Positions 18,883-52,988 of a stretch of DNA of 64,000 nt are shown here, in pieces. This DNA is from Acuticoccus yangtzensis (lineage in GTDB: Bacteria; Pseudomonadota; Alphaproteobacteria; Rhizobiales; Amorphaceae). The position numbers and the translations under genes are program-made. The number at the start of each line of letters is the position of its first letter. Positions within the stretch are counted from its first letter, which is position 1. The notes beneath the pieces are model-generated. The model had not been told where the DNA came from and did no database searches. It saw nothing but the letters and a program-made list of their open reading frames with translations. The stretch is taken from assembly GCF_001927245.1 (NCBI RefSeq), contig NZ_MJUX01000010.1:1-64000 (forward strand). The letters are read 5' to 3'.

Positions 18883-20159
18883 GCGTGCTCGCCCTCTTCC
18901 TCTCTCTCGGCCTCATCGTCCTTCTCGTCATCGGCGTGCCGATCGCCTTCACGCTGACGATCCTCACCATCGGCGGTCTCTACATCGCCGATATCAACCC
19001 GATCATCGCCGCCCAGCGGATGCTGGCGGGGACGGACGTCAACAGCCTGCTCGCCATCCCCGGCTTCATCCTCGCCGGCGACCTGATGGGGGCGGGCGGC
19101 CTGTCGCGGCGCCTGGTGCGCTTCGCCGCGGCGATCTTCGGCGTCTTCACCGGGGGTCTCAGCATCGCCACCGTGATGGCCGGCACCTTCTTCGGCGCGA
19201 TCTCCGGCTCCGCGCCGGCGACGACCGCCGCCGTGGGCTCGGTGATGATCGACGAGCTGGAGCGGCGCGGCTACCGGCGCGACTTCGCCGCGGCGCTCTC
19301 CACCTCCGTCGGCCCGCTCGGCCAGATGATCCCGCCGTCGATCCCGATGGTGATCTGGGGCGTGCTCGCCGAGCAGTCGATCAGCAAGCTGTTCCTCGCC
19401 GGCGTGGTTCCCGGCATCCTCTCCGCGCTCGGCTTCATCGTCGTGTGCGTGTGGACCGCCAAGCGCAACGGCATCCCCGCCGATGCCGCGGTGACGCGGG
19501 CCGAGTTCGTCCACGTTCTGAAGGACGGCGTGTGGGCGCTTCTGGCGCCGGTCATCATCCTCGGCGGCATCTATGGCGGCGTGTTCACGCCGACGGAGGC
19601 CTCGATGGTGGGCGTGCTCTACGGCCTCATCACCGGCGTGTTCATCTACCGCGAACTGTCGCTCAAAGCGCTCTACGACACGGTGCTGCGCAGCCTGAAG
19701 CTGAGCGGGATGATCATGTTCATCATCGCCGCGGCCTACGGCTATGCCTACCTGATGGCGAGCGAGCAGATCCCGCTGCAGATCGCCGAGGTGCTGCTCT
19801 CGGTCTCGGACAACCCGGTCGTCATCCTGCTGATGGTCAACGTTCTCCTGCTGGTGCTCGGCGCCGTGATGGACAACGTGTCGGCGATGGTGATCCTGTC
19901 CGGCGTTCTCACCGCCATCGGCGTGCAGGTCGGGATGGATCCGATCCAGCTCGGCGCGATGGTGGTCATCAACTTCGCGGTCGGCATGGTGACGCCGCCC
20001 GTCGGCTACTCGATCTTCGTGGCCTCCGCGGTGAGCGGGCTGAAGGTGGAGACGATCGCCAAGCGGCTGTGGCCGTTCCTGCTCGTCTTCGTCCTCGTCG
20101 TCCTCGCCGTGACGTTCGTGCCCGCGGTGACCTTGTGGCTTCCCAACCAACTCGGATGA
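18879..20159 (+). CDS. TRAP transporter large permease, DctM family (system 2)
   Basis: A 426-residue membrane protein with about twelve helices. DctM hallmarks are GTFFGAISGSAPATTAAVGSVM near residue 105, GPLGQMIPPSIPMVIWGVLA near 145, GGIYGGVFTPTEASMVGVLY near 230 and NFAVGMVTPPVG near 365. It moves the solute delivered by DctP across the inner membrane with sodium. Its ATG overlaps the DctQ stop. The next gene, an amidohydrolase, begins 14 bases after the stop and is likely in the same operon. Confidence 0.94.
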   Translation: MSVLALFLSLGLIVLLVIGVPIAFTLTILTIGGLYIADINPIIAAQRMLAGTDVNSLLAIPGFILAGDLMGAGGLSRRLVRFAAAIFGVFTGGLSIATVMAGTFFGAISGSAPATTAAVGSVMIDELERRGYRRDFAAALSTSVGPLGQMIPPSIPMVIWGVLAEQSISKLFLAGVVPGILSALGFIVVCVWTAKRNGIPADAAVTRAEFVHVLKDGVWALLAPVIILGGIYGGVFTPTEASMVGVLYGLITGVFIYRELSLKALYDTVLRSLKLSGMIMFIIAAAYGYAYLMASEQIPLQIAEVLLSVSDNPVVILLMVNVLLLVLGAVMDNVSAMVILSGVLTAIGVQVGMDPIQLGAMVVINFAVGMVTPPVGYSIFVASAVSGLKVETIAKRLWPFLLVFVLVVLAVTFVPAVTLWLPNQLG

Positions 20160-20173
20160 CGAAAGGGCCGACG

Positions 20174-21073
20174 ATGAGCGTCGCCAACACCACGCCGGAC
20201 ATCCCGGCGCCCGTGGCCGAGCCGAAGAAGCCGGACCATATCCTGCCCGCCGGCAGCTGCGACTGCCACGCCCACATCTTCGGGCCGGCCGAGCGCTACC
20301 CTTACGCGGCGGAGCGGGACTACACCCCGCACGACGCGCCGCTGTCGATGTATGCCGGGCTTCTCCACCACCTCGGCTTCTCGCGCGCGGTGCTGGTGCA
20401 GGCCAGCGTCTACGGCACCGACAACAGCCAGATGGCCGACGCGCTGGAGGCGGCGAAGAGCGAGCCGCACGGCATCGAGTGGCGCGGCATCGCGGTGCTG
20501 CCGGAAAGCGTCAGCGATGCCGAGCTGGAGCGGCTGAACGGCCTCGGCGTGCGCGGCGCGCGGCTCAACCTCCTCAACAAGGGGGCGGGCCTGTCGTTCG
20601 ACGACGTGAAGGCCCTCGCCGACCGTCTCGCCCCGCTCGACTGGCACCTGCAGTTCCTCATCGACATCTCCACGTTCGCGGATTTTCGCGGGCGCATGTC
20701 GCGGCTGCCGGTGACGAGCGTGATCGACCATATCGGCCACTTTCCCGGACAGCTCGGGCCGCAATCGGCGGGCTTCCAGGATCTCCTGGCGCTCGTCAGG
20801 GAGGGGCGGACCTGGGTCAAGGTGAGCGGGCCCAACCGCTTCGCCCGTCAGCCGGTGCCGCCTTATGACGATGCCGTTCCGCTGACCGAGGCGCTGGTGG
20901 AGGCCGCGCCCGATCAGCTCGTGTTCGGCACCGACTGGCCGCACGTGAGGCTCAAGACGCCGATGCCCGACGACGGGGCGCTGGTCGACGAGTTCATGCG
21001 CTGGATCGGCAACGACGCGGCCATCGCCCAGCGCATTCTGGTGGACAACCCGGCGCGTCTCTACGGCTTCTAG
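20174..21073 (+). CDS. Amidohydrolase family protein (2-pyrone-4,6-dicarboxylate hydrolase-like)
   Basis: A 299-residue TIM-barrel metal hydrolase of the amidohydrolase 2 family. Visible active-site parts are CDCHAHIFGP near residue 32 with the HxH pair, VIDHIGHFPG near 180 and GTDWPH near 253 with the late Asp. This pattern and length fit the group that includes LigI, which opens 2-pyrone-4,6-dicarboxylate. AAAGGG stands before the ATG. It is the last gene of the FAD oxidase-TRAP-hydrolase run, so it may hydrolyse an imported cyclic ester or lactone; the true substrate is not shown by the sequence. Confidence 0.85.
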   Translation: MSVANTTPDIPAPVAEPKKPDHILPAGSCDCHAHIFGPAERYPYAAERDYTPHDAPLSMYAGLLHHLGFSRAVLVQASVYGTDNSQMADALEAAKSEPHGIEWRGIAVLPESVSDAELERLNGLGVRGARLNLLNKGAGLSFDDVKALADRLAPLDWHLQFLIDISTFADFRGRMSRLPVTSVIDHIGHFPGQLGPQSAGFQDLLALVREGRTWVKVSGPNRFARQPVPPYDDAVPLTEALVEAAPDQLVFGTDWPHVRLKTPMPDDGALVDEFMRWIGNDAAIAQRILVDNPARLYGF

Positions 21074-30959: not shown

Positions 30960-31205
30960 ATGCCGGGCCTGTTCATCAGGGATGAGACCATCAACGAACT
31001 CGCCGTGGAAGCCATGGCGCTGACCGGGGCGAAGAACAAGACCGAGGCCGTTCGCGCCGCGCTGCAGGCCGCCATCGCCTCGGCCAAGGAGCGCGTGCCG
31101 CTGCATCAACGGCTCGAAGCCGCGCAGGCGCTCGCCGATAAGATCGGCCCCGTCGATCCGGATTATGACGCGAAGGCCGACTCCGATGCGCTGTGGGAAA
31201 GCTGA
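30960..31205 (+). CDS. vapB: VapB-type antitoxin (PSK family)
   Basis: An 81-residue antitoxin. The N-terminal half, with LFIRDETINELAVEAMALTG, then AKNKTEAVRAALQAAIASAK, is the DNA-binding part of PSK-operon type (Rv0623-like) antitoxins. The C-terminal half, PLHQRLEAAQALADKIGPVD, should wrap and block the toxin. The gene ends 3 bases before the toxin gene. It likely neutralises VapC and represses the operon. Ribosome binding site before the ATG is weak. Confidence 0.88.
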   Translation: MPGLFIRDETINELAVEAMALTGAKNKTEAVRAALQAAIASAKERVPLHQRLEAAQALADKIGPVDPDYDAKADSDALWES

Positions 31206-31208
31206 GCG

Positions 31209-31628
31209 GTGTTCATCGACGCGTCCGCGATCATCGCGATCCTCAATCGGGAACCGGGCTCGGAGGAACTGGTCAAGCGCCTCGCGGCCAGTCGCAGCCA
31301 AGCCTATTTCTCGCCGCTCGCCCATTTCGAGGCGGTGATCGGGCTGGCGCGTTCCAGATCGGGGCGGCATCGCTCGCCGACGGCAGCGCAGGTCGAGGCG
31401 GCCCGCAAAGCCGTCGACGCCTTTCTGGCCGAGGTTCGGGCCGAGACCATGCCGATTTCGGACACCGTCGGTTTGGCGGCGATCAGGGCCGCAGAGACCT
31501 ATGGCAAGGCCGTGGGGCACGAGGCCGACCTCAACTTCGGCGATTGCTTCGCCTATGCCTGCGCGAAGGCTCGCCGCATCGCCCTCCTCTACAAAGGCAA
31601 TGATTTCCTGAAGACCGACCTCGCATGA
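31209..31628 (+). CDS. vapC: VapC-type PIN-domain ribonuclease toxin
   Basis: A 139-residue PIN-domain protein starting at GTG 31209 (MFIDASAIIAILN). The acidic metal-binding residues of VapC toxins are visible as Asp4, Glu41 (HFEAVIG), Asp112 (NFGDCFAYA) and a further Asp132 (KGNDFLKTDL). VapC cleaves specific RNAs, often initiator tRNA or the 23S sarcin-ricin loop, and slows growth when its antitoxin is lost. It is co-transcribed with the antitoxin 3 bases upstream. All key residues are intact, so the pair appears functional. Confidence 0.9.
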   Translation: MFIDASAIIAILNREPGSEELVKRLAASRSQAYFSPLAHFEAVIGLARSRSGRHRSPTAAQVEAARKAVDAFLAEVRAETMPISDTVGLAAIRAAETYGKAVGHEADLNFGDCFAYACAKARRIALLYKGNDFLKTDLA

Positions 31629-32145
31629 CGTCGGGATGACGTCGGGGGCGACCCAAGAAACTGACAGACGCCAATCTGGGCGAGCCCGGCGCGCTCGCGG
31701 TCCTGTTCAGACTTCGATCCCTCGCCGGTCACCAATGGGCCGGAATTGCTAGCCTTCTAGCGTCCTCTGAAACAGCATCCGCCATTTTTGTTTCAAGCGC
31801 AGTCTGCCTGGTTGTTGGCAAACCAGGACTTATGCGACGCGCCGAGACGTGAGCAGTCCTGCGACCTCGCCGCGTTGCACATTCGCGTTGCGGATTGAGC
31901 CGGCTTTTCCTGTCGAGGCAGCGTGGACGTGAAGGGCTTGCGGCCGGCAGGGGATTTCTCCCGGAACGCGCGCCGTCCATCGGCCACCGACGGCCGCGAC
32001 GGCGGACGCCAGGCGGACGTTCCGACGCGAAAGTGTGATCACATTTCGGGAATGGGCCAGGATGGGACTTGGCAACTTCAACACGAACGCATCTAAATAG
32101 GTGCAGGCACACCTGCTGCAATAATAACCATAAACGGACCAGGAC
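31629..32145. other. Intergenic stretch between vapC and the enolase-superfamily genes
   Basis: About 500 bases without a supported gene. It starts with a direct repeat (ATGACGTCGGG twice at about 31626-31648). A 7-bp hairpin CCTGGTT-GTTGGCA-AACCAGG lies at 31807-31827 and could end the vapBC transcript. The last 110 bases before the ATG at 32146 are AT-richer and include a palindrome described separately. No tRNA or insertion sequence is visible. Confidence 0.45.
32034..32043. promoter_or_regulatory. Palindrome upstream of the enolase-superfamily operon
   Basis: TGTGATCACA is a perfect 10-bp palindrome, extended to AAGTGTGATCACATTT with one mismatch, about 100 bases before the first gene. 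It resembles half sites used by GntR- or CRP-type regulators. A GCAGG-CACA-CCTGC dyad lies closer to the ATG, near 32104. No regulator gene lies beside this operon, so control may come from elsewhere. Confidence 0.4.
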
Positions 32146-33261
32146 ATGCTCATTACGGCGATCGAAAGTTCCGTCGTCTCGGTGCCCTTCACGATGGGCG
32201 GACCGTATTGGTCTTTCGCCGGTAAGACCTGGGATCGACTGGACATCCTGCTCGTCAAGGTCGAGACGGAGGACGGTCTCGTCGGCTGGGGCGAGGCGTT
32301 CGGACATGCCGGTCTCGACGCCACGCGCGCCGCGCTCGACCATATCGTCGCGCCATTGGCGGTGGGGGCGGATGCCGGCGACATCAACGCGCTCACACGC
32401 AAAATCCTGCACAGCGTCCACCTTCTGGGACGCAACGGGGCGTTCGTCTACGCCTTCAGCGGCATCGAGATCGCGCTGTGGGACCTCCTCGGCAAGCGGA
32501 CCGGCCAGCCGCTGTGGCGCCTTCTGGGCGGCAGCCGGCCGGGCCGGCTCGGCGCCTATGCCAGCCTCCTGTCCTACCGCGGCGACGTCGACCTCGTCGG
32601 CAAATGCACCGCCGAGGCGCGCGCCCAGGGCTATCGCGGCATCAAGCTGCACGAGGTGACCCGCCCGTCCGTGCTGGCCGCCAAGGAGGCCGCGCCCGAC
32701 TGCGAGATCATGCTGGACGTCAATTGCGCCTGGTTGCCGCCGGTCGCCCGCGAGGCGGCGCGATCACTCGCCGGTGACGGCCTCAGGTGGCTGGAAGAGC
32801 CGGTCTGGCCGCCGGAGGATACGGCCGGCCTCGCCAGCCTCAAGCGCTACGGCATCCCGCTCGCGGCCGGCGAGAACACCGCGGGTCTGTTCGGCTTCCG
32901 CGCGCTGATCGAAGCCGGCGCCATCGACATCGCCCAGCCGAGCGTCACCAAGGTCGGCGGCATCGGCGAGATGATGCGCATCATCGCCCTCGCGGACGCG
33001 CACGGCGTCGAGATGATGCCGCACAGCCCCTATTTCGGGCCGGGCTTCCTGGCGACTCTGCACCTGTCCGCCGCGCTCCTCGAGCGGCCGCTGGTCGAGG
33101 TGCTGTGGATGGACATGGAGGCCAACCCGTTCGACCCCTGGGTGCGGGTCACGGACGGAACGGTGGGCGTGCCGGACGGGCCGGGCCTCGGCTGCGATCC
33201 CGACCCGGACGTCCTGAAAGCCTACGCCAAAGGCGAAACCGTACGGACGGAGCGTTCCTGA
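32146..33261 (+). CDS. Mandelate racemase/muconate lactonizing enzyme family protein (enolase superfamily), 1
   Basis: A 371-residue enolase-superfamily enzyme. The metal ligands are present: Asp191 (LDVNCAW), Glu217 (WLEEPV) and Glu243 (AAGENT). At the second-strand position, where mandelate racemase has KxK, this protein has Lys167-Leu-His169. At the position of the Asp that pairs with the catalytic His it has Ser266 (QPSVTKVGG), while His293 (MPHSPYFGP) remains. So it differs from classical racemases and sugar-acid dehydratases, and its reaction cannot be assigned. It shares one base with the next enolase-superfamily gene (TGATG). Neighbours are an ABC importer. Confidence 0.88.
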   Translation: MLITAIESSVVSVPFTMGGPYWSFAGKTWDRLDILLVKVETEDGLVGWGEAFGHAGLDATRAALDHIVAPLAVGADAGDINALTRKILHSVHLLGRNGAFVYAFSGIEIALWDLLGKRTGQPLWRLLGGSRPGRLGAYASLLSYRGDVDLVGKCTAEARAQGYRGIKLHEVTRPSVLAAKEAAPDCEIMLDVNCAWLPPVAREAARSLAGDGLRWLEEPVWPPEDTAGLASLKRYGIPLAAGENTAGLFGFRALIEAGAIDIAQPSVTKVGGIGEMMRIIALADAHGVEMMPHSPYFGPGFLATLHLSAALLERPLVEVLWMDMEANPFDPWVRVTDGTVGVPDGPGLGCDPDPDVLKAYAKGETVRTERS

Positions 33262-34343
33262 TGCGCGTGACACAGGTCGAGACCCGCGCCCTCAAACTCC
33301 CCCTCGCCGCGCCGATCGGCAGCGCGCTCGGCGCGATCGAGGGGTTCGGCGTGATCCTCGTGACCGTGCGGACCGACGGCGGCGTCACCGGAGAAAATCT
33401 CGTCTTCACCCTGAACGACCGCCGCACCAAGGTGCTGCGGCAGATGGTCGACGACCTCGCCGATCAGATCGTCGGCTTCGATGCCGGCCACATCGCCGCC
33501 TTCTGGGCGCGTGCATGGAAGGACATCAACTTCATCGGCCACCAGGGCGTGGCGGTGATGGCGATCTCGGCCCTCGACGGGGCGCTGTGGGACGCGCTCG
33601 GCAAGGCGGCGGGGCTGCCGCTCTATCGCCTGCTGGGCGGCGCCGGTTCGTCCGTTCCGCTCTACCATAGTGGCGGCCTATGGCTGTCGCGCTCCACCGA
33701 TGAACTGGTGGAAGAGGCGGGGCGGTTCATGGCGCAAGGCTTCAAGGCCATGAAGATGCGCCTCGGCAACGCCGACCCGCGGGTGGACGCGGCCCGCGTG
33801 CGTGCCGTGCGCGAGGCCATCGGCCCGGACATCAAGCTGATGGCCGACGCCAACCAGGGACAGACCGAGGCAAAGGCGATCCGGCTCGGCCGCCTGTTAG
33901 AGGAATTCGATCTAACCTGGTTCGAGGAGCCGTTGCCGGCCTGGGATCTCGACGGGCTGGCGCGGGTCGCGGCCGCGCTCGACACGCCGATCGCCAGCGG
34001 CGAGACCGAGTATACGCGGTACGGTTTCCGCCGCATGCTGGAGCTGCGCTCGGCCGACATCCTGATGCCGGATCTGCAGCGTGTCGGCGGTGTCAGCGAG
34101 TTCATGCGGGTCGGCCACATGGCCCAGGCGTACGACGTGGCGGTGTCGTCCCACCTCTTCCCGGAAACCAGCATCCAGGTCCTCGGCGCGCTCTCCAATG
34201 CCGTCTTCCTCGAGTACATGCCCTGGTTCAGCGACCTCTACAACGAACGGCTTGAGATCGCGGATGGTATGGCCCTGGTTCCGGAACGTCCGGGGTGGGG
34301 CTTTACTTTCAATGCGGACTTCATCGATAAAGTAAGTGCTTAA
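33261..34343 (+). CDS. Mandelate racemase/muconate lactonizing enzyme family protein (enolase superfamily), 2
   Basis: A 360-residue enolase-superfamily enzyme with positions aligning one off from mandelate racemase: Lys165-Met-Arg167 (racemase Lys164, Lys166), metal ligands Asp196, Glu222 and Glu248, and the catalytic dyad Asp271 (MPDLQRVGG) and His298 (SSHLF). Replacement of the second Lys by Arg suggests one-base chemistry, such as a dehydration or cycloisomerisation, rather than two-base racemisation; this is inference. It overlaps the previous gene by one base and is 64 bases before the ABC binding-protein gene. Two differing enolase-type enzymes in tandem suggest successive steps. Confidence 0.9.
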   Translation: MRVTQVETRALKLPLAAPIGSALGAIEGFGVILVTVRTDGGVTGENLVFTLNDRRTKVLRQMVDDLADQIVGFDAGHIAAFWARAWKDINFIGHQGVAVMAISALDGALWDALGKAAGLPLYRLLGGAGSSVPLYHSGGLWLSRSTDELVEEAGRFMAQGFKAMKMRLGNADPRVDAARVRAVREAIGPDIKLMADANQGQTEAKAIRLGRLLEEFDLTWFEEPLPAWDLDGLARVAAALDTPIASGETEYTRYGFRRMLELRSADILMPDLQRVGGVSEFMRVGHMAQAYDVAVSSHLFPETSIQVLGALSNAVFLEYMPWFSDLYNERLEIADGMALVPERPGWGFTFNADFIDKVSA

Positions 34344-34407
34344 GATCGGCATAAGATAACGCCGACGAAAATAACAACATAGAAATAACAACATAGGAGG
34401 AAGCGGC

Positions 34408-35595
34408 ATGAGGATCACCCGTCGGGGATTCACACTCGGAGCCGCGAGCCTGGCGGCGAGCACGACGCTCGCACGCCCGGCTCTGGCGCAAAGCGAACCG
34501 ATCCGCGTGGGCTGGCTCGCCGCATTGACCGGGCCGAGCTCGGCACCGGCCATCGGTTTCGATCGCGGCGTGCACTATGCCACCGATGCGATCAACGCGG
34601 CCGGCGGCGTCAACGGCCGTCAGATCGAGCTGGTCGTGCGCGACACGCAGGGCGACCCGACCAAGGCCGTCAACGCCGCGCAGGAGATGATCAGCCGCGC
34701 GCGGGTCCACGCCATCTGGGGGCCGACCAACTCCGGCGAATCGCTCGCGACCACGCCGATCATGGCCCGCGCCGGGGTGCCGAACGTCCACCCCTGCTTC
34801 GTCGACGCGTTGATCGACACCAAGCGCTATCCCAACGCCTTCCGCATGGCCCCGTCCAACACGCAGATCGACAATGCCGTCGGCGACTACGGCGTTAAGA
34901 TCCTTGGCAAGAAGAAGTTCGCCGTCATCGGCGACACCACCGGCTACGGCACCACCACGGTGAAGAGTTCGTCCGCCGCCTTCGAGGCGCGCGATTCCGA
35001 GGTGGTCTACGCCGGCACCATCGAGCAGACCCAGCCCGACGTCACGAGCGACATGCTGCGCATGAAGAACGCCGGCGCCGAGGCGATCGCGATCTGGACG
35101 GTCTCCCCCGGCCTCATCTCGCGCATCCTGAACACCCGCGCCAACCTCGACTGGGACGTACCGGTCATCGGCCATCCGGCGATGGGGTCCGGCGAGGTCG
35201 GCCGCCTGGTGGACAAGCCGGAAAACTGGAGCAACGCCTACATTCTCGGTTTCCGCAACACGAGCTATGGCGACGACGGCAAGCTGCCGGATCACGTCCA
35301 GGCCTTCGTGGACAAGATCAAGAGCGAGATCGACCTCGACGACACGACATTGTGGTGGATCCTCGACGGCGTCGATTCGATCAACATCATCGCGGATGCC
35401 GTGCGCGAAACCGGCACGACCGACCCGAAGGACATCATCGGCTACTGGAACGCTCAGGCGGACTATCCCGGTCTGTTCGCGAGCTACACCTTCTCGCCGG
35501 ACCAGCACAACGGCCTGTCGCCCGAAGACCTCGTCATGTCCGAAGCCAACAGTCAGAAGTACGGGGCCTACAAGCTGGCGCCGGGCTACGAATAG
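34408..35595 (+). CDS. Branched-chain-type ABC transporter substrate-binding protein (LivJ/LivK-like)
   Basis: A 395-residue periplasmic binding protein of the leucine/isoleucine/valine type (Peripla_BP_6). The N-terminus ITRRGFTLGAASLAAS has a twin-arginine motif followed by a hydrophobic stretch and LARPALAQ cleavage, so Tat export is likely. The mature domain includes GWLAALTGPSS, NAAGGVNGRQIELVVRDTQG and VKILGKKKFAVIGDTTGYG. AGGAGG stands before the ATG, and a direct repeat (AAATAACAACATAG) lies just upstream. Given the enolase-superfamily genes beside it, the ligand may be a hydroxy or aromatic acid rather than an amino acid. Confidence 0.9.
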   Translation: MRITRRGFTLGAASLAASTTLARPALAQSEPIRVGWLAALTGPSSAPAIGFDRGVHYATDAINAAGGVNGRQIELVVRDTQGDPTKAVNAAQEMISRARVHAIWGPTNSGESLATTPIMARAGVPNVHPCFVDALIDTKRYPNAFRMAPSNTQIDNAVGDYGVKILGKKKFAVIGDTTGYGTTTVKSSSAAFEARDSEVVYAGTIEQTQPDVTSDMLRMKNAGAEAIAIWTVSPGLISRILNTRANLDWDVPVIGHPAMGSGEVGRLVDKPENWSNAYILGFRNTSYGDDGKLPDHVQAFVDKIKSEIDLDDTTLWWILDGVDSINIIADAVRETGTTDPKDIIGYWNAQADYPGLFASYTFSPDQHNGLSPEDLVMSEANSQKYGAYKLAPGYE

Positions 35596-35616
35596 ACCCT
35601 AACCGACAGCACAAAA

Positions 35617-36477
35617 ATGCTCCCAGCGATCTTAGCGTCCGGCCTCGCAATGGGGTCGATCTACGCCATGATGGGCGTCGTCTACAACGTGATGTTCTCA
35701 GCCTCTCGGGTGATGAGCTTCACGACCGGACAGCTCGGCATGCTCGGCGGCGTCCTCGGCGCCGCCTTCGTGGGCATCCTCGGGCTTCCGGCCATCGTCG
35801 GCCTCGTTCTCACCCTCGCGTGCTGCGCCCTCGTCGGCATCGTGACCGAGGTCGTCGCGGTCCGTCCGGTTCTCGACAAGCTCGACCAGCACCTCTACGT
35901 GCTGTCGACGCTCGCCCTCGCGCTGATGATTCAGCAGTTCGTGGCGATCGAGTGGAGCACCGAGCCTCAGCCATTCCCGCAGCTCATCGGCTTCGGGGGT
36001 GGCGGCCCGACGGACGAGAAGTTCTGGCTGCCGGTGCTCGCCTGCGCGGTCACCGTGGTCGGTCTGGAACTCCTCTTCCGCCACACCCTCGTCGGGCGCG
36101 CCTTCCTGGCGATCTCGGAGGACAACTATGCCGCCCGCGCGCTCGGCCTGCCCGAGCGGCGCCTCAGGATGGCGAGCTACGCGCTGGCGGGCATGATCGG
36201 CGGTCTCGCCGGCTTCGCGTCCGGCCAGCTCCTGCTCGCCTTCTTCGCCAACGGGCCCTACCTCAACTTCTACGGCTTCGTGCCGGTGGCGCTGGGCGGG
36301 CTCGGCAACAATCGTGGCGCGATCATCTCCGGGCTGCTGCTCGGACTCGTGCAGCAGGCCGCCCACTTCACCTTCGGCGGCGTGTTCACCTCGGTCGCCG
36401 TCTTCGCCGTCTTCATCGTTGCCTTGCTCGCCGCGCCTCAGGGTCTGTTCGGCCAGCCGAAGCAACGCCGGGTCTGA
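35617..36477 (+). CDS. Branched-chain-type ABC transporter permease, LivH family
   Basis: A 286-residue inner-membrane permease of the LivH family with about eight membrane helices. Conserved features are GLAMGSIYAMMGVVYNVMFS at the N-terminus, GRAFLAISEDNYAARALGL near residue 150, the cytoplasmic loop that contacts the ATPase, and GGLGNNRGAIISGLLLGLVQ near 230. It starts 21 bases after the binding-protein gene and ends 13 bases before the fused permease-ATPase gene. Confidence 0.93.
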   Translation: MLPAILASGLAMGSIYAMMGVVYNVMFSASRVMSFTTGQLGMLGGVLGAAFVGILGLPAIVGLVLTLACCALVGIVTEVVAVRPVLDKLDQHLYVLSTLALALMIQQFVAIEWSTEPQPFPQLIGFGGGGPTDEKFWLPVLACAVTVVGLELLFRHTLVGRAFLAISEDNYAARALGLPERRLRMASYALAGMIGGLAGFASGQLLLAFFANGPYLNFYGFVPVALGGLGNNRGAIISGLLLGLVQQAAHFTFGGVFTSVAVFAVFIVALLAAPQGLFGQPKQRRV

Positions 36478-36490
36478 CCGAGGTGATGAC

Positions 36491-38290
36491 GTGAACCACA
36501 CCGCCTCGACCCCCCGCCCCGCCGCGGCCCCCGCGCTCGGCCACACGCTCCTGAAGCTGATCCCCTACGCGGCCATCCTCGCCGTCGCGCTCGTCCTGCC
36601 CTTCATCGCCAACGACTATTGGGTGCTGATCGCCACCCGCGCGGCGATCTACTGGGTGCTCGTCTCGGCGCTCAATCTCGTCGTCGGGTTCGCCGGCCAG
36701 CTCGCCATCGGCTGGGTCGCGCTGCTGACGCTCGGGGCCTACACGACGAGCGTCCTCACCGCCGGTACGGTTCTGCCGCCGATGCCGCTGCTCGTCGCCT
36801 TCGCGGCGGCCGCCGTGGTCGGTGCGCTGGCGGGCCTCCTCGTCGGTCTTCCGGCGCTGCGCCTGCGCACCTTCTACTTCGCGATGACGACCCTGGGCTT
36901 CGCCACCATCACCACCCAGATCGCCCTCGCCTGGCAGGACGTCACCGGCGGCGGCATCGGCATCCCCGGCCCCTGGCTCCCCTCCCCGTTCGACAACGCG
37001 CTCGGCTTCTACCTCCTGTGCCTCGGCCTTGCCGCCGTGCTCACCTGGATGACGGCCAACGTCGCCCGCAGCCGCTTCGGCCGCGGCCTCGTCGCCATTC
37101 GCGATGCGGAGGTGGCGGCGGAGGTGTCGGGCATCTCCAAACCGGCGCTTCTGGTGGCGGTCTTCCTGTTCAGCGGGGCCGCGGCCGGGGTCGCGGGCGG
37201 GCTGTTCGCGACGCTGCAGTCCTACATCTCGCCCGAAGCCTTCACCTTCGACCTGTCGGTGCTGTTCTTCATCGCCATCCTGATCGGCGGGCGCGGGTCG
37301 ATCCTGGGACCGCTGATCGCGACGATCGTGCTCACCTGGCTGCCGGAGTTCGCCGCCCCCCTCGTGGTGTGGTCGACCTTCCTCTACGCCTTGCTGCTCC
37401 TCGTCATCGTGCTGGCGGTCCCCGGCGGCATCGCCGCGATGCTCGACTTCGGCAGCCGGCGGCCGCTGGCGCGCGATCGCGCCGTGGTGCCGCGCGAGGA
37501 GCTCCTCGGCGCCCTCTTCACCGAGCGGCCGGCATCCAGTGCCATCGTCCTCAAGGACGTGGTGCTGAGCTTCGGCGCGGTGCGGGCGATCGACGGCCTC
37601 GACCTCACGATCGATCCGGGCGAGGTGCACGGCCTCATCGGTCCGAACGGTTCGGGCAAAACCACCACGCTCAACGTGATCTGCGGCTTCTACAAGCCCG
37701 ATACCGGCACCGTCCGGGTCGGCGACGACGTCCTGAAGCCCGGCGAGCCGCAGCACCGCGCCGAGGTGGGGATCGCCCGGACCTTCCAGACACCGCGCCT
37801 GATCGGCGAATCCACCGTGCTCGAGAACGTGATGGTCGGTGGCGACACCAGCGGCCGCGCCACCTTCGCCGAGGCGCTGCTCAACCTACCGCGCAACCAC
37901 GCGGACGAGGTGATGCTGCGGGAACGGGCCGATCTGGCGCTGCGCATCGTCGGGCTGGAGGCGCTCGCCGGCGTCAGGGCCGACCGGCTGCAGCACAGCG
38001 AGCTGCGGTTCATGGAGATCGCGCGGGCGCTGATGCTGCAACCGCGCTTCCTGCTCCTCGACGAGCCCGCCGCGGGCCTCTCGGGCGACGAGATCGCCCG
38101 CCTCGGCAGCCTCATCGAAAGCGTCAGCCGCCACGGCGTCGGCGTCCTGCTCGTGGAGCACCACGCCGATCTGATCTTCAAGATCTGCCACCACGTGACC
38201 GTGCTCGATCTGGGCCGGGTGCTGGCGGACGGAACGCCGGACGAGGTGAGAACCCATGAGGACGTGGTGAGTGCTTACCTTGGCGGATAA
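36491..38290 (+). CDS. Fused LivM-type permease and LivG-type ATPase
   Basis: A 599-residue fusion. Residues about 20-320 are a LivM permease with about ten membrane helices (NLVVGFAGQLAIGWVALLTL, AIRDAEVAAEVSGISK, LIGGRGSILGPL). Residues about 350-599 are a LivG ATPase with Walker A GPNGSGKTTT near 384, GIARTFQTPRL near 430, and Walker B FLLLDEPAAGLSGDE near 525. The ABC signature is degenerate: LQHSELRFMEIARALM has no LSGGQ glycines. LivG proteins often have relaxed signatures, but this one is more altered than usual. The GTG at 36491 follows GAGGTGA. Such permease-ATPase fusions are known in alphaproteobacteria. Confidence 0.92.
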   Translation: MNHTASTPRPAAAPALGHTLLKLIPYAAILAVALVLPFIANDYWVLIATRAAIYWVLVSALNLVVGFAGQLAIGWVALLTLGAYTTSVLTAGTVLPPMPLLVAFAAAAVVGALAGLLVGLPALRLRTFYFAMTTLGFATITTQIALAWQDVTGGGIGIPGPWLPSPFDNALGFYLLCLGLAAVLTWMTANVARSRFGRGLVAIRDAEVAAEVSGISKPALLVAVFLFSGAAAGVAGGLFATLQSYISPEAFTFDLSVLFFIAILIGGRGSILGPLIATIVLTWLPEFAAPLVVWSTFLYALLLLVIVLAVPGGIAAMLDFGSRRPLARDRAVVPREELLGALFTERPASSAIVLKDVVLSFGAVRAIDGLDLTIDPGEVHGLIGPNGSGKTTTLNVICGFYKPDTGTVRVGDDVLKPGEPQHRAEVGIARTFQTPRLIGESTVLENVMVGGDTSGRATFAEALLNLPRNHADEVMLRERADLALRIVGLEALAGVRADRLQHSELRFMEIARALMLQPRFLLLDEPAAGLSGDEIARLGSLIESVSRHGVGVLLVEHHADLIFKICHHVTVLDLGRVLADGTPDEVRTHEDVVSAYLGG

Positions 38291-38291
38291 C

Positions 38292-38996
38292 ATGCTCCTG
38301 GAGGTTACCGACCTCGTCGCCGGCTACGGCAAGATCGACGTCCTGCACGGCGTGACCCTTCACGTCGCGGCGGGAGAGGTGGTGTCCCTTCTGGGACCGA
38401 ACGGAGCCGGCAAGACCACACTGCTGGGGGCGATCTCCGGCCTCATCCCCGTCACCTCCGGCACGGTCCGGTTCGACGGGAACGACATGAAGGGCGCCAG
38501 CGCTCGCCACTATGCCAAGGCGGGACTGGCGCACGTGATCGAGGGGCACCGGATCTTCAGCCAGCTCACCGTGACGGACAATCTGCTCCTTGCCGGCTAC
38601 GATCTGTCACGTCACGAGCGGACTGAGCGGATCGAGACGGCGCTGTCGCTGTTCCCCGAGATCAGCGCCAAGCGCGATGACAAAGGCGGGGCTCTGAGCG
38701 GCGGTCAGCAGCAGATGCTCGCCATCGCTCAGAGCGTGGTGCGCAATCCGAAGCTCCTGCTGCTGGACGAGCCGTCGGCGGGCCTCTCGCCGGTTCTGGT
38801 CGATCGCGTGCTCACGGTCGTCTCCGAGCTGAAGGCCGCGGGCACCGCCGTCCTATTGGTCGAGCAGCTGGTGGACAAGGCGGTGTCGGTGTCGGACCGC
38901 ATCTATGCGCTCGCCCAAGGCCATATGGTCGTGGAGACGTCGGCCGATACCTCCGACCTTCACCACCGCCTCGAAGCGGCCTATTTCGGCGGCTGA
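38292..38996 (+). CDS. Branched-chain-type ABC transporter ATP-binding protein, LivF family
   Basis: A 234-residue ATPase of the LivF family: MLLEVTDLVAGYGKIDVLHG, Walker A GPNGAGKTT near residue 36, signature LSGGQQQMLAIAQSVV near 138, Walker B LLLLDEPSAGLSP near 158. Unlike its LivG partner it keeps an intact signature. I chose the ATG at 38292, one base after the upstream stop; a GTG at 38271 inside the previous gene would add seven residues. A hairpin CTTCCCC-GATGGG-GGGGAAG at 39038-39057 may end the operon. Confidence 0.92.
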   Translation: MLLEVTDLVAGYGKIDVLHGVTLHVAAGEVVSLLGPNGAGKTTLLGAISGLIPVTSGTVRFDGNDMKGASARHYAKAGLAHVIEGHRIFSQLTVTDNLLLAGYDLSRHERTERIETALSLFPEISAKRDDKGGALSGGQQQMLAIAQSVVRNPKLLLLDEPSAGLSPVLVDRVLTVVSELKAAGTAVLLVEQLVDKAVSVSDRIYALAQGHMVVETSADTSDLHHRLEAAYFGG

Positions 38997-44407: not shown

Positions 44408-45085
44408 ATGAGCGCAGTGGATGGGCTGTCGGACGAGGCGCTGCTGGAGCGCTGTGGCAAGATCGCCAGCAGCACCTGGTCGGATGCGATGGATTCACTC
44501 GGCCTCGGCGGGCTCGTGGAAGGGCTGACGCAACGCGGCGGACAGGGCCGCGCGGTCGGTTTCGCGGTCACGGCGCAGCAGGTCGCCGGCGAATTCGGCC
44601 AGTTCGACCGGAGCGAGTTCGGCGTCGGCAAGCTGGTCGACGCGGCGCGGCCGGGCACGATGTTGATGGTCACCTCCAACGGGGCCGTGGTCTCCTCGAT
44701 GGGCGGCATCGCCGCCCTCGCGGCCTCCAAGCAGGGCGCGACCGGCGTGGTGATCGACGGCGCCTGCCGCGATGTCGATGAGATCGCGGCGACCGGGCTG
44801 TGGATGGCGACGCGCCATGTGACCCCGCGCACCGGCAAGACGCGGCTGTCTTTGGTGGAGATGGGCGGTTCCGTTCTGGTCGGCGGCATTCGCGTCACTG
44901 CGGGCGACCTCGTGGTGGCGGACGATACCGGCATCGTGGTGATCCCGCGCGGGCGCATCGCCGAGGTGCTGGCGGCGGCCGAGAAGGCGCTGGCGGTGGA
45001 TGAGGCGGTGGAAGGGGGCGTGCGCGCCGGCAAGCCCTTCGCCGAGGCGGCGGCGGCGGCCAACTATCTCCCCGCCGCGGGCTGA
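44408..45085 (+). CDS. RraA family protein (4-hydroxy-4-methyl-2-oxoglutarate aldolase-like)
   Basis: A 225-residue protein of the RraA/HMG aldolase family. The active-site segment VIDGACRDVDEI gives Arg121 and Asp122, equivalent to the catalytic Arg and metal-linked Asp of the class II pyruvate aldolases of this family; GGIAALAASKQGATG before it is conserved. RraA itself (an RNase E inhibitor) shares the fold, but the metabolic context and the intact active site favour an aldolase that splits a 4-hydroxy-2-oxo acid to pyruvate and an aldehyde or ketoacid. GAGG precedes the ATG; the next gene follows by 2 bases. Confidence 0.88.
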   Translation: MSAVDGLSDEALLERCGKIASSTWSDAMDSLGLGGLVEGLTQRGGQGRAVGFAVTAQQVAGEFGQFDRSEFGVGKLVDAARPGTMLMVTSNGAVVSSMGGIAALAASKQGATGVVIDGACRDVDEIAATGLWMATRHVTPRTGKTRLSLVEMGGSVLVGGIRVTAGDLVVADDTGIVVIPRGRIAEVLAAAEKALAVDEAVEGGVRAGKPFAEAAAAANYLPAAG

Positions 45086-45087
45086 TC

Positions 45088-46029
45088 ATGGCTGGCTACG
45101 ACGTCGTTCAGATCGACACGGTGGGTGCGGCCGCCGACGCGGCCTTGGCCGAGCGGCGCAAGGTGCTGAACCTCATCGGTGCACCGATCCCGGCCGACCT
45201 CACCGCCCTGGCGCCGGACGCGAAGGTGCTCGTCACCACCGTGCGGCGCGGCGTGACGCGCGAGCTGATGGCGGCGCTTCCGGCGCTGAAGGCGGTGTGC
45301 AGCTGGGGCGTCGGGTTCGACACGCTGGACGTGGGCGCGGCCCGCGAGATGGGCATCGGCGTCAGCTATACGCCGGGCGTTCTCGACGACTGCGTCGCCG
45401 ATCTCGCCTTCGCGCTGCTCTTGGGAACGGCGCGGCGCTTGGCCGAGGCGGACCGCTATGTCCGGTCCGGTTCCTGGTGCCGATCCGGGGCCTTTCCCGA
45501 GACGGTCAAGGTCAGCGGCAAGCGCCTCGGCATCCTCGGCATGGGCCGGATCGGCGAGGCGATCGCCCGCCGCGGGGCGGGATTCGACATGCCCATCGGC
45601 TACCACAATCGGCGCCCCAAGGCGGATGCGCCGGGCATCTATTTCGACGACCTGGCGGGGCTCGCCACATGGGCGGACGTCCTCGTCGTCGCCTGTCCGG
45701 GCGGGCCGGCGACCTATCGCCTGGTGAACGCCGCGGTGCTGGAGGCGCTGGGGCCGCGCGGCATCCTCGTCAACATCGCGCGCGGTTCGGTGGTCGACCA
45801 GGCCGCGCTCGTGGCAGCGCTCCAGGCCGGCACGCTCGGCGGTGCGGGGCTCGACGTGTTCGAGGAAGAGCCCTCCGCCCCGGCCGCCCTGGTGGCGATG
45901 GATCAGGTGGTGCTGACACCCCACTACGGCAGCTGCACCCAAGAGACCCGCCGGGCGATGGGCGACCTCGTCGTCGCCAACGCGGAGGCGGTGCTGGACG
46001 GCGGGGCCCTGCTGACCCCGATCCCCTGA
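45088..46029 (+). CDS. D-isomer-specific 2-hydroxyacid dehydrogenase
   Basis: A 313-residue NAD(P)-dependent dehydrogenase of the D-2-hydroxyacid family. The nucleotide-binding motif GMGRIG is near residue 151, and the catalytic Arg lies in NIARGSVVDQ near 231, with EEEPSA near 265 and the catalytic His in TPHYGS near 280. This resembles glyoxylate/hydroxypyruvate reductases. Its start lies 2 bases after the aldolase gene, implying one operon. It may reduce a 2-oxo product such as hydroxypyruvate or glyoxylate. Confidence 0.92.
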   Translation: MAGYDVVQIDTVGAAADAALAERRKVLNLIGAPIPADLTALAPDAKVLVTTVRRGVTRELMAALPALKAVCSWGVGFDTLDVGAAREMGIGVSYTPGVLDDCVADLAFALLLGTARRLAEADRYVRSGSWCRSGAFPETVKVSGKRLGILGMGRIGEAIARRGAGFDMPIGYHNRRPKADAPGIYFDDLAGLATWADVLVVACPGGPATYRLVNAAVLEALGPRGILVNIARGSVVDQAALVAALQAGTLGGAGLDVFEEEPSAPAALVAMDQVVLTPHYGSCTQETRRAMGDLVVANAEAVLDGGALLTPIP

Positions 46030-46213
46030 CCCCTACCCTTCGAGGCGCGCCGCCCTGCGGCGACGCGCGACGAGATCCGGTGGCCGGCGCACGCCCGCCG
46101 GTCCGACCGGCGGAGCGGCGGCCCCGGCGTGTCCTCCCCGCGCCGGGGGGCCGCCGCTCCCTTCCCATCAGATACCGGGGCGGCATGCGCGTCCCCAACG
46201 ACCGAGACCCCTC

Positions 46214-47647
46214 ATGGATCACATCATCGCCGAACGGCTGACGAGCATCGACCCCGCGACGGGCGCCGAGGCCGGCAGCGTCGCCGTCACCACGCCCGCC
46301 GCGCTCGACCGCATGGTGGAGACCGCCGCCGCCGCGTTCCGGGACAGCGGTTGGAAGGATCTTCTGCCGCACAAGCGGGCCGAGGTGCTGCGGGCGATCT
46401 CCGACCGGCTGGAGGCCGAAAAGGAAAGCCTGGCGCGGCTGCAGATGCGCGACAACGGCAAGCCGCTCTCGGAATGCCGGGGCATGGTCGACTATGCCGT
46501 CGGCACCTTTCGCTACTACGCCTCCGCCTGCGAGACGCTGCAGACCGAGGTGACGACGCCGCGCGGCCCCTATGTGTCGATGACGGTGCTGGAGCCCTAC
46601 GGCGTGGTGGCGGCGATCACGCCGTGGAACTCGCCGATCATGAACGACGCGACGAAGGTCGCCCCGGCGCTCGCGGCGGGCAACGCGGTGCTGCTGAAGC
46701 CGTCCGAAGATGCGCCGCTTCTGGCGCCCGAGCTGGCGCGCATCGCGCTGGAGGCGGGGCTTCCGGAGGGGCTTCTCCAGGTGGTGCAGGGCCGGGGGGC
46801 TGCGATCGGTGCGGCGCTGGTGGCGCACCCGGGCGTGGCGATGATCTCCTTCACCGGCGGCACGGCGACGGGCCGGGCCATCGGCAAGGTGGCGGCGGAC
46901 CGCGTCGCGCCGGTGGCGCTGGAGCTCGGCGGCAAGTCGCCCCACATCGTGTGCGCCGACGCGGATCTCGACCTCGCCGTCGCGGCCGTCATCTCGGGCA
47001 TCTTCGGCTCGGCGGGGCAGTCCTGCGTCGCCGGCTCGCGCGTCTTCATCGAAGCGTCGATCTATGACGAGGTGCTGGGGCGCGTCGCCGAGCGGGCCCG
47101 CTCGATCCGCGTCGCCGCGCCCGATGCGGACGGCGTGGAGATGGGGCCGCTCGCCTCGTTCCACCACCGCGAGCGGGTCGAGGCCTTCGTGGCGCGGGCC
47201 CGCAGCGAGGGCGGGCGCGTTCTCGCCGGCGGCGCCCGGCCGGAAGGAGCCGCCTACGAGGCCGGCGCCTACTATCTGCCGACCGTCATCGACGGCCTCG
47301 CCCCCGACAGCCTGACCTGTCAGGAGGAGGCGTTCGGCCCGGTCCTGGTGGCGCTTCCCTTCAGCGACGAGGCGGAGCTGATCGCGCTCGCCAACGGCAC
47401 CGCCTTCGGCCTCGCCTGCGGCATCTGGACCGGCGACTTCCGCAAGGGCTGGCGCCTCGGCCGCGCGCTCGAGGCGGGCTCGGTGTGGGTCAACACCTAC
47501 AAGCAGTCCGTCACCTCGACGCCCTTCGGCGGCTTCAAGTCGAGCGGCATCGGACGGGAGAAGGGGCTCGACGGGCTGCGCCTCTATGCGCAGGTGAAGA
47601 GCCTTTATTTCGGCCTGCAGACGACGCCCTTCCCCGTCTCCAAGTAA
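46214..47647 (+). CDS. NAD(P)-dependent aldehyde dehydrogenase
   Basis: A 477-residue aldehyde dehydrogenase. The general-base Glu is in LELGGKSPH near residue 241 and the catalytic Cys in GSAGQSCVAGSR near 275; the cofactor site GFTGGTATGRAIG-type sequence is near 220, and the C-terminal PFGGFKSSGIGREKG is typical. It oxidises an aldehyde to the acid. It lies 184 bases after the 2-hydroxyacid dehydrogenase on the same strand and 43 bases before the next dehydrogenase. In this cluster it probably oxidises the aldehyde released by the aldolase. Confidence 0.95.
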   Translation: MDHIIAERLTSIDPATGAEAGSVAVTTPAALDRMVETAAAAFRDSGWKDLLPHKRAEVLRAISDRLEAEKESLARLQMRDNGKPLSECRGMVDYAVGTFRYYASACETLQTEVTTPRGPYVSMTVLEPYGVVAAITPWNSPIMNDATKVAPALAAGNAVLLKPSEDAPLLAPELARIALEAGLPEGLLQVVQGRGAAIGAALVAHPGVAMISFTGGTATGRAIGKVAADRVAPVALELGGKSPHIVCADADLDLAVAAVISGIFGSAGQSCVAGSRVFIEASIYDEVLGRVAERARSIRVAAPDADGVEMGPLASFHHRERVEAFVARARSEGGRVLAGGARPEGAAYEAGAYYLPTVIDGLAPDSLTCQEEAFGPVLVALPFSDEAELIALANGTAFGLACGIWTGDFRKGWRLGRALEAGSVWVNTYKQSVTSTPFGGFKSSGIGREKGLDGLRLYAQVKSLYFGLQTTPFPVSK

Positions 47648-47690
47648 CGCGGCCCGCGGGCCCTCACATCAGGCAAGAAGAAGAGACGTT

Positions 47691-48575
47691 ATGACCGACA
47701 AGGTGGCAGTCTACGGGCTGGGCAACATGGGGTTCGTGCAGGCCGAGCGGATCGCGAAGGCGCTGCCGACGGTGGTCTATGACCTGTCGCCGGAGCGCAT
47801 GGCGGCGGCCGAGGCGTTCGGCGCCCGGCCGATGACGGGGCCGGCGGACGTCGCCGGCTGCCGCTTCGTCGTTCTGTGCCTGCCGACGCCCGCGGCCTCG
47901 CGCGCGGTGCTCGCCGCCATCGCCCCGCAGCTGGCGGACGGCGCGGTGGTGATCGAGACCAGCACGGTGAACCCGGACGACGTGCGCGCCGAGGCGAAGG
48001 CGCTGGAAGGCACCTCCGCCCGGCTGATCGACGCCTCGATCCTCGCCGGGGTGAGCCAGATGGCGGCGGGCACGGCGACGCTGCTTCTCGGCGGCGACGA
48101 CGCGGCGATGGACGAGGCCAAGCCGGTGCTCGACGCCATCGCCGTCAAGCAGATCCGTTTCGGTGCGCTCGGGGCGGGGGCCGCGGCGAAGGTCATCAAC
48201 AACGCGGTCGCCCACGCGGTGATGGTGGTGGTCGCCGAGGCCGGATCGATGGCGATGGCCAACGATGTCGAGGTCGACAAGCTCGTCGGTCTCCTGTCGG
48301 ACGCCGAGATGGGCCTGCACCGGCCGCTCACCTTCCGCTATGCCAAGCGCGTGATGGACGACGATTATGCCGGCGGCATGCCGCTGGCCGCCGCCCGCAA
48401 GGACTCCGAGCTGGCGTTGACGCTGGCCCAGAAGAGCGGCGTTCCGCTGTTCGCGATCCAGGCCTGCCACAGCATCTACGAGCTGGGTGTCGCCGCCGGC
48501 TACGCCGAGGAGGATTATGCGGCGATCGCCAAGCTGTGGCGCGATTGGGGCCGCCCCGCGGCCCCATCAGCTTAA
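47691..48575 (+). CDS. 3-hydroxyisobutyrate dehydrogenase family (beta-hydroxyacid dehydrogenase)
   Basis: A 294-residue NAD(P)-dependent beta-hydroxyacid dehydrogenase. The N-terminal VYGLGNMGFVQAERIAK is the Rossmann glycine motif, the substrate-binding region ASILAGVSQMAAGTATLLLG is near residue 120, and the catalytic Lys is in GAAAKVINNAVAH near 168. Relatives include tartronate semialdehyde reductase and 3-hydroxyisobutyrate dehydrogenase. AAGAAGAGA precedes the ATG. Its last codons and TAA stop lie inside the first unit of the 31-bp repeat array at 48550, so the array has set the C-terminus (GRPAAPSA). Confidence 0.92.
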   Translation: MTDKVAVYGLGNMGFVQAERIAKALPTVVYDLSPERMAAAEAFGARPMTGPADVAGCRFVVLCLPTPAASRAVLAAIAPQLADGAVVIETSTVNPDDVRAEAKALEGTSARLIDASILAGVSQMAAGTATLLLGGDDAAMDEAKPVLDAIAVKQIRFGALGAGAAAKVINNAVAHAVMVVVAEAGSMAMANDVEVDKLVGLLSDAEMGLHRPLTFRYAKRVMDDDYAGGMPLAAARKDSELALTLAQKSGVPLFAIQACHSIYELGVAAGYAEEDYAAIAKLWRDWGRPAAPSA

Positions 48576-51836: not shown

Positions 51837-52988
51837 TTATTGTTCGATCGACCAGTGGTCGGTGACGTACGGCGCCAGCGCCTCGGGATCGATGGCGAGG
51901 CCGAGGCCCGGCCCGTCCGGAACGGGGATGGTGCCGTCGGCGCCGGGTGTGGGGTCGAGCACGGCGGCGCGCAGCGGGTTGTGGCTGGTGTCGTACTCGA
52001 AGAGGGGGAGAGGGCGCGCGCCCTGCGGCGTCGTCGTCAGCGAGGCGATCTGCAGCCCGGCGAGGAAGTTGACCCCCGCGCCCCAGACGTGGGGGATCAT
52101 CGGCAGGCCGAAGGCGTCGCACAGACCGGCGATGCGCATCGTCTCGGTGATGCCGCCGGCGAGCGCGATGTCCGGCTGGACGATGGCGAGGGCGCGCGTT
52201 GCGATCGCCTCGCGAAAGGCGCCCGCGCCGCAGAAGGATTCGCCGCCGGAGAGCGGGACCGGCAGGCGCGCCGCGATCTCGCGATAGGCGGGAAGATCGT
52301 CGTGCGGCACCGGCTCCTCGATCCACCTGAGGCCGATGTCGGACACGCGGGCGGCAAGCTCCAGCGTGTCGTGGACGGTCGAGCCCTCGTTGAGGTCGAT
52401 CATGAGGTCGGTGTCCGGCCCCAGGATGGTGCGCGCCGTGCGGATCGCCGCCTCGTCGCGCGCCGGGCCGACGCCGACCCTCAGCTTGACCGCCTTGAAG
52501 CCCGCCTTCGCGAAGCCTGTGACGGCCTCCTCGAAGCCGTCATAGCGATCGGCCCCTGCGGGCATCAGCGGGCCGCTCGCATAGGTGGAGACGCTGTCCC
52601 TCAGGCGGCCGCCGAGGAGCCCGGCGATGGACTGGCCGCAGGCCCGGCCGAAGGCGTCCCACGCGGCGATGTCGATGGCGCTGAGCGCCATGTGGGCCTG
52701 GCCGCGCCGGTCCGGCACGACGCGGCGCAGCATGGCCGCCTGCAGCGCGCGCGGGGCGGTGATGTCGGCGCCGAGCACGGTGGGGGCGAGGACGGAGCGG
52801 ATGAAGGCGGCCGAAGCGTCGGCGAAGGCCCAGGTCTCGCCCCAGCCGCTGAGGCCGCCGGCGGTGGTGAGCCGAACGAGGAGACTGCGCCGCTCGGTGA
52901 AGGTGCGGGTTGCGTTGCCCGCTTCGCGCGGCATGGCGCAGCTGAGTGCAAATCCTTCGATCCGCACGATCCGGTCGGCCGTTCCCAC
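51837..52988 (-). CDS. Mandelate racemase/muconate lactonizing enzyme family protein (enolase superfamily), 3
   Basis: A 383-residue enolase-superfamily enzyme. Residues: Lys168-Leu-Arg170 at the KxK position, metal ligands Asp198 (MIDLNEG), Glu224 (WIEEPV) and Glu250 (SGGESF), Asp273 (QPDIALAGG) and His300 (MIPHVWG) as the catalytic dyad. This arrangement is common in sugar-acid dehydratases and cycloisomerases, which yield 2-keto-3-deoxy acids. It is the first gene of the minus-strand TRAP 4 operon and is divergent from a LysR regulator. The 2-keto acid it may form would suit the RraA-type aldolase in the neighbouring operon. Confidence 0.9.
   Translation of the reverse strand: MGTADRIVRIEGFALSCAMPREAGNATRTFTERRSLLVRLTTAGGLSGWGETWAFADASAAFIRSVLAPTVLGADITAPRALQAAMLRRVVPDRRGQAHMALSAIDIAAWDAFGRACGQSIAGLLGGRLRDSVSTYASGPLMPAGADRYDGFEEAVTGFAKAGFKAVKLRVGVGPARDEAAIRTARTILGPDTDLMIDLNEGSTVHDTLELAARVSDIGLRWIEEPVPHDDLPAYREIAARLPVPLSGGESFCGAGAFREAIATRALAIVQPDIALAGGITETMRIAGLCDAFGLPMIPHVWGAGVNFLAGLQIASLTTTPQGARPLPLFEYDTSHNPLRAAVLDPTPGADGTIPVPDGPGLGLAIDPEALAPYVTDHWSIEQ

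Follow-up and report, generated by a model that had tools for sequence, protein, structure and literature searches.

Closest described systems

Galactarolactone cycloisomerase (Gci; 4hpn/4ggb), from Agrobacterium, acts after uronate dehydrogenase in the oxidative uronate pathway and, in oxidative sugar-acid pathways, turns a lactone into a 2-keto-3-deoxy acid (excerpt of PMC6353982). In mandelate racemase (MR; 1mdl and others), Lys166 and His297 serve as the two acid-base catalysts (excerpt of PMC9835602), and Lys164, Lys166, Asp270 and His297 are all retained in one MR-like cycloisomerase that has been characterised (excerpt of PMC9706016). Further points of comparison are the L-talarate/galactarate dehydratases (2pp0, 2og9/3cb3; curated family NF047820) and 3ugv, an enolase from BAL199 whose title names just an enolase with bound Mg.

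Here we describe two adjacent MR-like enzymes, E1 and E2, that resemble these systems and differ from them in the active site. E1 shares the fold of Gci, and some relatives of E1 adjoin a relative of uronate dehydrogenase. However, 4ggb has K-I-K and QPD where E1 has K-L-H and QPS, and no uronate-dehydrogenase-like gene was found next to E1 in loci of the type described here. The L-talarate/galactarate dehydratases are the best curated family and the best PDB profile match of E2, whereas 2pp0 and 2og9 have K-L-K where E2 has K-M-R. Mandelate racemase resembles E2 in fold (TM about 0.95, 31-32% identity) and in its Asp, His and first Lys. At the position of Lys166, E2 has Arg and E1 has His; the Asp, too, is missing from E1. 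The BAL199 enolase has K-L-R with an aligned Asp and His and comes first in a PDB search with the E2 sequence by itself (220.4 bits), although identity is 34%.

Layout of the locus

The window is the whole stretch of 64,000 nucleotides that was analyzed. E1 and E2 are encoded in it at the head of a row of six genes on the forward strand:

32146..33261 (+): E1, enolase-superfamily (MR-like) protein, 371 aa; from Pfam, alignment and predicted structure
33261..34343 (+): E2, enolase-superfamily (MR-like) protein, 360 aa; from Pfam, alignment and predicted structure
34408..35595 (+): substrate-binding protein of a branched-chain-amino-acid-type (HAAT) ABC importer; Pfam Peripla_BP_6
35617..36477 (+): LivH-like permease; Pfam BPD_transp_2
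36491..38290 (+): LivM-like permease fused to a LivG-like ATPase; BPD_transp_2 and ABC_tran in one frame
38271..38996 (+): LivF-like ATPase; Pfam ABC_tran

The start of the LivM-LivG fusion at 36491 comes from the coding model, and the frame used in the Pfam search ran from 36314. The best NCBIfam relatives of the LivF-like ATPase are LivF and UrtE, with scores below cut-off, and the nearest solved relative of the binding protein is titled just putative Leu/Ile/Val-binding protein.

E1 and E2 meet in a TGATG junction, in which the last base of the E1 stop codon TGA is the first base of the E2 ATG, and the importer genes (34408-38996) follow downstream of the pair according to Pfam and the coding model. 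An earlier sequence-only reading of this DNA had reported the one-base overlap and the ABC importer behind the pair. We obtained the same coordinates and frames, and found the importer to be conserved with the pair. That reading also took the overlap to imply equal production of the two enzymes, which is an overstatement: what the overlap suggests is translational coupling.

We propose, with a confidence slightly short of even, that the six genes (32146-38996) make up a small catabolic cassette in which the HAAT-type importer would take up a small carboxylic acid, E1 would catalyze a beta-elimination and E2 would act on the same compound.

Upstream of E1, a divergent LysR-type gene lies 93-313 bases away in 18 of the 31 other window-type loci (defined below). 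In the window its place is taken by genes for a VapB-like antitoxin and a PIN-domain protein (30960-31628, forward strand). A perfect palindrome, TGTGATCACA, is located at 32034-32043, about 100 bases before E1, in a single copy in the window; in its place, the relatives L038, L039 and L048 have ATAAG-N5-CTTAT upstream of E1. A promoter-like scan gave no matches, and terminator-like sites were at chance level.

Conservation of the pair and importer across genomes

All counts of loci refer to distinct loci, with repeats merged (L114-L117, L119/L134, L120/L152/L153, L121/L154 and L123/L155). The clade of E1 sequences of the window type contains 32 sequences, including that of the window, with a tree support of 96/40, or 99/100 without the Polaromonas row. 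E2 and importer genes lie beside E1 in 22 of the 32 sequences counted, and all six genes occur together in at least 18 loci besides the window; the DNA of three pair loci (L010, L030 and L041) ends inside the importer. E1 and E2 overlap in 21 of the 22 loci; the overlap is 4 bases long in 18 of these and a single base in the other three (the window, L029 and L041). The other locus, L050, has a 13-base gap between the two genes and its importer in front of the enzymes. The LivM-LivG fusion is found in the window and its window-type relatives.

Two window-type loci (L024 and L031) have E1 and the importer without E2, and a search of the L024 genome found no E2 orthologue (best match 40%). Neither E2 nor importer was seen in six nearly identical Alcaligenaceae or betaproteobacterial E1 loci (L033-L036, L042 and L052), of which L035, L042 and L052 are short contigs; searches of the L033 and L036 genomes found no E2 orthologue (best matches 37 and 36%). 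Two loci (L045 and L051) are broken off by contig ends. No other gene of the window was common to more than 2 of the 31 window-type loci at 40% identity or above.

The pair also occurs in other arrangements. In L053 the order is E2, importer, E1; an Azospirillum plasmid (L104) carries the same gene set with E2 on the other strand, and LivM and LivG are separate genes in both. E2 is followed by E1 after 19, 19 and 98 bases in G430, G258 and G352, respectively, which are genomes from a single genus. These three layouts (window-type, L053/L104 and G430/G258/G352) correspond to separate clades of the E1 tree.

Co-occurrence was scored in 385 genomes of the class, with no more than five first-look candidates considered in each. 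Relatives were detected in 16 genomes for E2 (E up to 1e-75) and in 39 for E1 (E up to 1e-60). Nine genomes, including the window's own, have both, against 1.6 expected (hypergeometric 3e-6, with kinship ignored), and in four of the nine the two genes are non-adjacent. Seven genomes have an E2 relative without E1 and 30 an E1 relative without E2. The locus counts support the pair and its importer as a conserved unit.

The sequence-only reading had suggested that E1 and E2 catalyze consecutive steps of one acid pathway. This is weakened by the two loci that have E1 and importer without E2 and by the six that have E1 with neither, and because E1 and importer can occur without E2, we lean a little towards E2 as an accessory enzyme.

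The active site of E1 and the K-x-H clade

Both Pfam domains of the family were detected in E1 above their cut-offs (MR_MLE_N, 68 bits; MR_MLE_C, 181.7 bits), and the AlphaFold2 model has a pLDDT of 96.6. By alignment, D191, E217 and E243 occupy the three acidic metal-ligand positions of the enolase superfamily, and E1 probably belongs to the MR-like branch as an enzyme that depends on a metal and abstracts an alpha-proton. The canonical K-x-K of the MR subgroup is absent in both enzymes, being K-L-H in E1 (K167-L168-H169) and K-M-R in E2. The canonical His-Asp dyad is absent in E1: H293 and E318 align, and Ser266 fills the Asp column.

To place these residues, we used a 138-row alignment of relatives of E1 and E2. 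It contains 47 K-x-H rows, in which the dyad column is Ser in 45 and Asp in 2. In the 91 rows without K-x-H the same column is Asp in 86, Glu in 3, Arg in 1, Asn in 1 and Ser in none. The Lys-Leu-His and Ser266 that had been picked out in the sequence-only reading are borne out by the alignment, and the description of the E1 site as non-standard stands.

A contig scan with E1 as the query, from which the best 80 loci were taken, was supplemented by genome searches. Once plasmid and genome loci had been added, the K-x-H clade had at least 80 members, some of them nearly identical, with 39-100% identity to E1. Nine residues are invariant among the 80 members counted (K167, H169, D191, E217, E243, N244, K269, H293 and E318). 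Residue 266 is Ser in 76 of them and Asp in four (L013, L062, L182 and L183); the sequences with Asp lie at two separate positions in the E1 tree, with no well-supported branches that exclude one origin.

Judged from these alignments, E1 is a real, conserved and uncharacterised variant of the MR-like active site and no single-gene oddity. The distribution of Ser and Asp between K-x-H and other rows indicates that the His169 and Ser266 substitutions are linked and maintained, and because Ser occurs in 45 of 47 K-x-H rows and in none of the 91 others, they may be one coupled catalytic redesign. It is possible, if on the less probable side, that the K-x-H + Ser clade constitutes a mechanistic subgroup of MR-like enolases with a coupled acid-base redesign (His on strand 2 combined with an unpaired His on strand 7), a substrate class still unassigned and E2 as its partner in one pathway.

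A degenerate or non-catalytic paralogue might also be expected to lack the dyad Asp and the second Lys. We regard this as very improbable, as K167, H169, D191, E217, E243, K269, H293 and E318 are invariant in the 80 clade members counted, E1 is kept where E2 is missing and the predicted fold is confident. For E1 as an active enzyme, the likeliest reading of the aligned residues is that the strand-2 side (K167/H169) would abstract the proton, and the unpaired His293 may act as an acid or a hydrogen-bond donor.

E2 and its relatives

E2 is also recognized by both Pfam domains above cut-off (MR_MLE_N, 66.6 bits; MR_MLE_C, 220.3 bits), and its AlphaFold2 model has a pLDDT of 96.5. Alignment places K165-M166-R167, D271, H298 and E318 in the active site, with D196, E222 and E248 as metal ligands. 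The Lys-Met-Arg motif and the preserved dyad (D271/H298) agree with what had been reported from the sequence. Calling this site non-standard finds little backing, as Arg at the K-x-R position is common (30 of the 91 non-K-x-H rows) and is also found in the solved 3ugv. K-x-R, Asp and His are invariant in all 38 members of the E2 clade; in one of them, L163, the third metal ligand is replaced by Gln. By analogy with mandelate racemase, as far as the excerpted source describes it, an Arg and a His with its Asp would be an arrangement fit for two-face chemistry, either epimerisation or elimination.

One E2 relative (L160 8224-11511; 52% identity) is followed by genes for a CaiB-type CoA-transferase and a CitE-like lyase, a gene order hinting at another pathway for E2-type enzymes.

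In an alternative reading, the two enzymes work in parallel and not in series: the importer would admit stereoisomers or analogues, E2 would act as an epimerase or racemase that fixes the wrong isomer, and E1 alone would commit the compound to breakdown. Consistent with this, E1 and importer occur without E2 in L024, with no orthologue in the genome, and in L031, the nearest folds of E2 include mandelate racemase and another protein titled racemase, and candidate acid-base residues are kept on both faces of E2. The presence of E1 in 22 of 22 window-type E2 loci points weakly the same way, although these loci were found with E1 as the query. However, at the limits used, no E1 relative appears in 7 of the 16 genomes of the class that carry an E2 relative, and E2 relatives also lie beside CoA-transferase and CitE-like genes, so that E2-type enzymes need not serve E1. 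Parallel action seems doubtful to us. In the proposed cassette, we infer that E2 would share its substrate with E1, either presenting another stereoisomer to E1 or converting the product of E1. Work on SAR202, in the excerpt of PMC6946804, proposed that many enolase-superfamily paralogues unlock stereochemically complex compounds, and by analogy the E1/E2 pair would fit that proposal.

Comparison with curated families and solved structures

All 16 NCBIfam families listed for E1 and all 18 listed for E2 scored below their own cut-offs. The best for E1 was arabinonate dehydratase (151.5 bits, cut-off 650), and the best for E2 was L-talarate/galactarate dehydratase NF047820 (267.1 bits, cut-off 500), to which E1 scored 145 bits.

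We then searched the PDB with profiles of the two clades. The E1 profile gave 440-551 bits for 22 held-out clade members and 266 bits for the best true non-member; eight rows first taken as non-clade turned out to be clade members under another start coordinate and were left out of the non-member score. The best PDB chain, 3bjs, scored 258.9 bits. With the E2 profile, which itself contains most of the 38 members, these members scored 409-664 bits and 13 other rows at most 276, and the best PDB chain was 2og9 with 289.5 bits. Given this gap in scores, the PDB search found no solved structure that belongs to the E1 or the E2 clade.

The E1 model matched 4hpn best in both Foldseek and VIA-align (Z 46.4, rmsd 2.1, 355 aligned residues, 31% identity). 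The second match, one Z unit behind at 45.4, was 3ozm, the structure of a protein from Bordetella with xylarate and lyxarate. The nearest folds of E2 are 2ovl, 3ugv, talarate dehydratases such as 3cb3, and mandelate racemase. A further PDB entry, 4q6w, reportedly solved with a hydroxybenzoate, plays no part in the argument.

The sequence-only reading would have given way to an experimentally assigned group carrying the same residues. Searches of NCBIfam and the PDB by sequence, profile and fold, with residues read in 3-5 chains per search, found no characterised group with the residues of E1 or E2, and neither enzyme joins a curated or solved family. Nothing on the E1/E2 clade was found by motif, context or pair in open-licence papers.

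Gene neighbours and reaction class

A relative of uronate dehydrogenase lies beside the E1 relative in six of the 80 clade members counted (L065, L106, L108, L109, L111 and L113), with alignment ends 19-49 bases apart; the protein from L111 matches 3rft with an E of 2e-52. HpcH/HpaI aldolase-like genes are near E1 relatives in seven of the 80, six of them adjacent or overlapping (L057, L058, L065, L177, L179 and L180) and one at 467 bases (L173). Their HpcH/HpaI identity was checked with Pfam for L065, L057 and L179. Oxidative sugar-acid pathways lead from a dehydrogenase through an enolase-superfamily enzyme to an aldolase or semialdehyde dehydrogenase, which favours beta-elimination for E1; the relatives that give these hints are 39-47% identical to E1. 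By such an elimination E1 would most likely form a 2-keto-3-deoxy-type acid, either through dehydration or by opening a lactone or cyclic ether.

In one of these loci (L065 8110-14200, Pelagibacteraceae), the K-x-H enzyme gene overlaps the HpcH/HpaI aldolase gene, a uronate-dehydrogenase-like gene lies in front and three Gfo/Idh/MocA oxidoreductases lie further behind. In L106 (7192-9089) and L113 (7204-9098), the annotated uronate-dehydrogenase-like gene shares 4 bases with that of the K-x-H enzyme, the same overlap that E1 and E2 show in most window-type loci.

Other E1 relatives are near genes for acyl-CoA dehydrogenase, enoyl-CoA hydratase, CoA-transferase or dioxygenase, and a cluster of CoA-transferase, acyl-CoA dehydrogenase and enoyl-CoA hydratase genes was seen in 10 of 43 loci. 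With both sugar-acid and CoA/dioxygenase neighbours, the E1 clade is mixed, which speaks against carrying the sugar-acid hints straight over to E1. Window-type loci have neither sugar-acid nor CoA-type genes as common neighbours.

These neighbours bear on a different reading, in which an aromatic or branched-chain hydroxy acid is degraded and E1 and E2 perform racemase or dehydratase steps ahead of an unlinked CoA activation. The importer is of the branched-chain type; the pair relatives in L104 are accompanied by a CaiB-type CoA-transferase, two acyl-CoA dehydrogenases and an enoyl-CoA hydratase, and those in L053 partly so; and in L160 the neighbours of the E2 relative are CaiB-type and CitE-like genes. 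We consider the reading unlikely nonetheless: CoA genes are not common to window-type loci, where single CaiB-like or acyl-CoA-dehydrogenase-like matches occur near L025 and L049, and the nearest fold of E1 is that of a sugar-lactone enzyme.

Co-occurrence of the pair and importer in many bacteria points to an uncharacterised breakdown of some small acid. Among enolases, the MR-like branch serves as a model of the evolution of new activities through changes of acid-base residues around one metal site. The coupled gain of His and loss of Asp, combined with a conserved cassette, offers a direct handle, as the binding protein can report the substrate and the enzymes can then be assayed in vitro.

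Other genes in the window

The genome has 12 PF13378 matches, 11 of them above cut-off. A third MR-like protein in the window (51837-52988, reverse strand; K-L-R, Asp, His) is encoded near LysR-type and TRAP-transporter-like genes, which were named from the look of their sequences and their order. Genes resembling RraA, 2-hydroxyacid dehydrogenase, aldehyde dehydrogenase and 3-hydroxyisobutyrate dehydrogenase stand in a row at 44408-48575 (forward strand), all below NCBIfam cut-offs; in relatives they are unlinked to E1, save for one aldehyde dehydrogenase match (42%) in L030. The gene at 20156-21073 (forward strand) encodes a protein related to 4-sulfomuconolactone hydrolase (180.7 bits against a cut-off of 500), and the three genes before it are TRAP-transporter-like, as judged by order and length.
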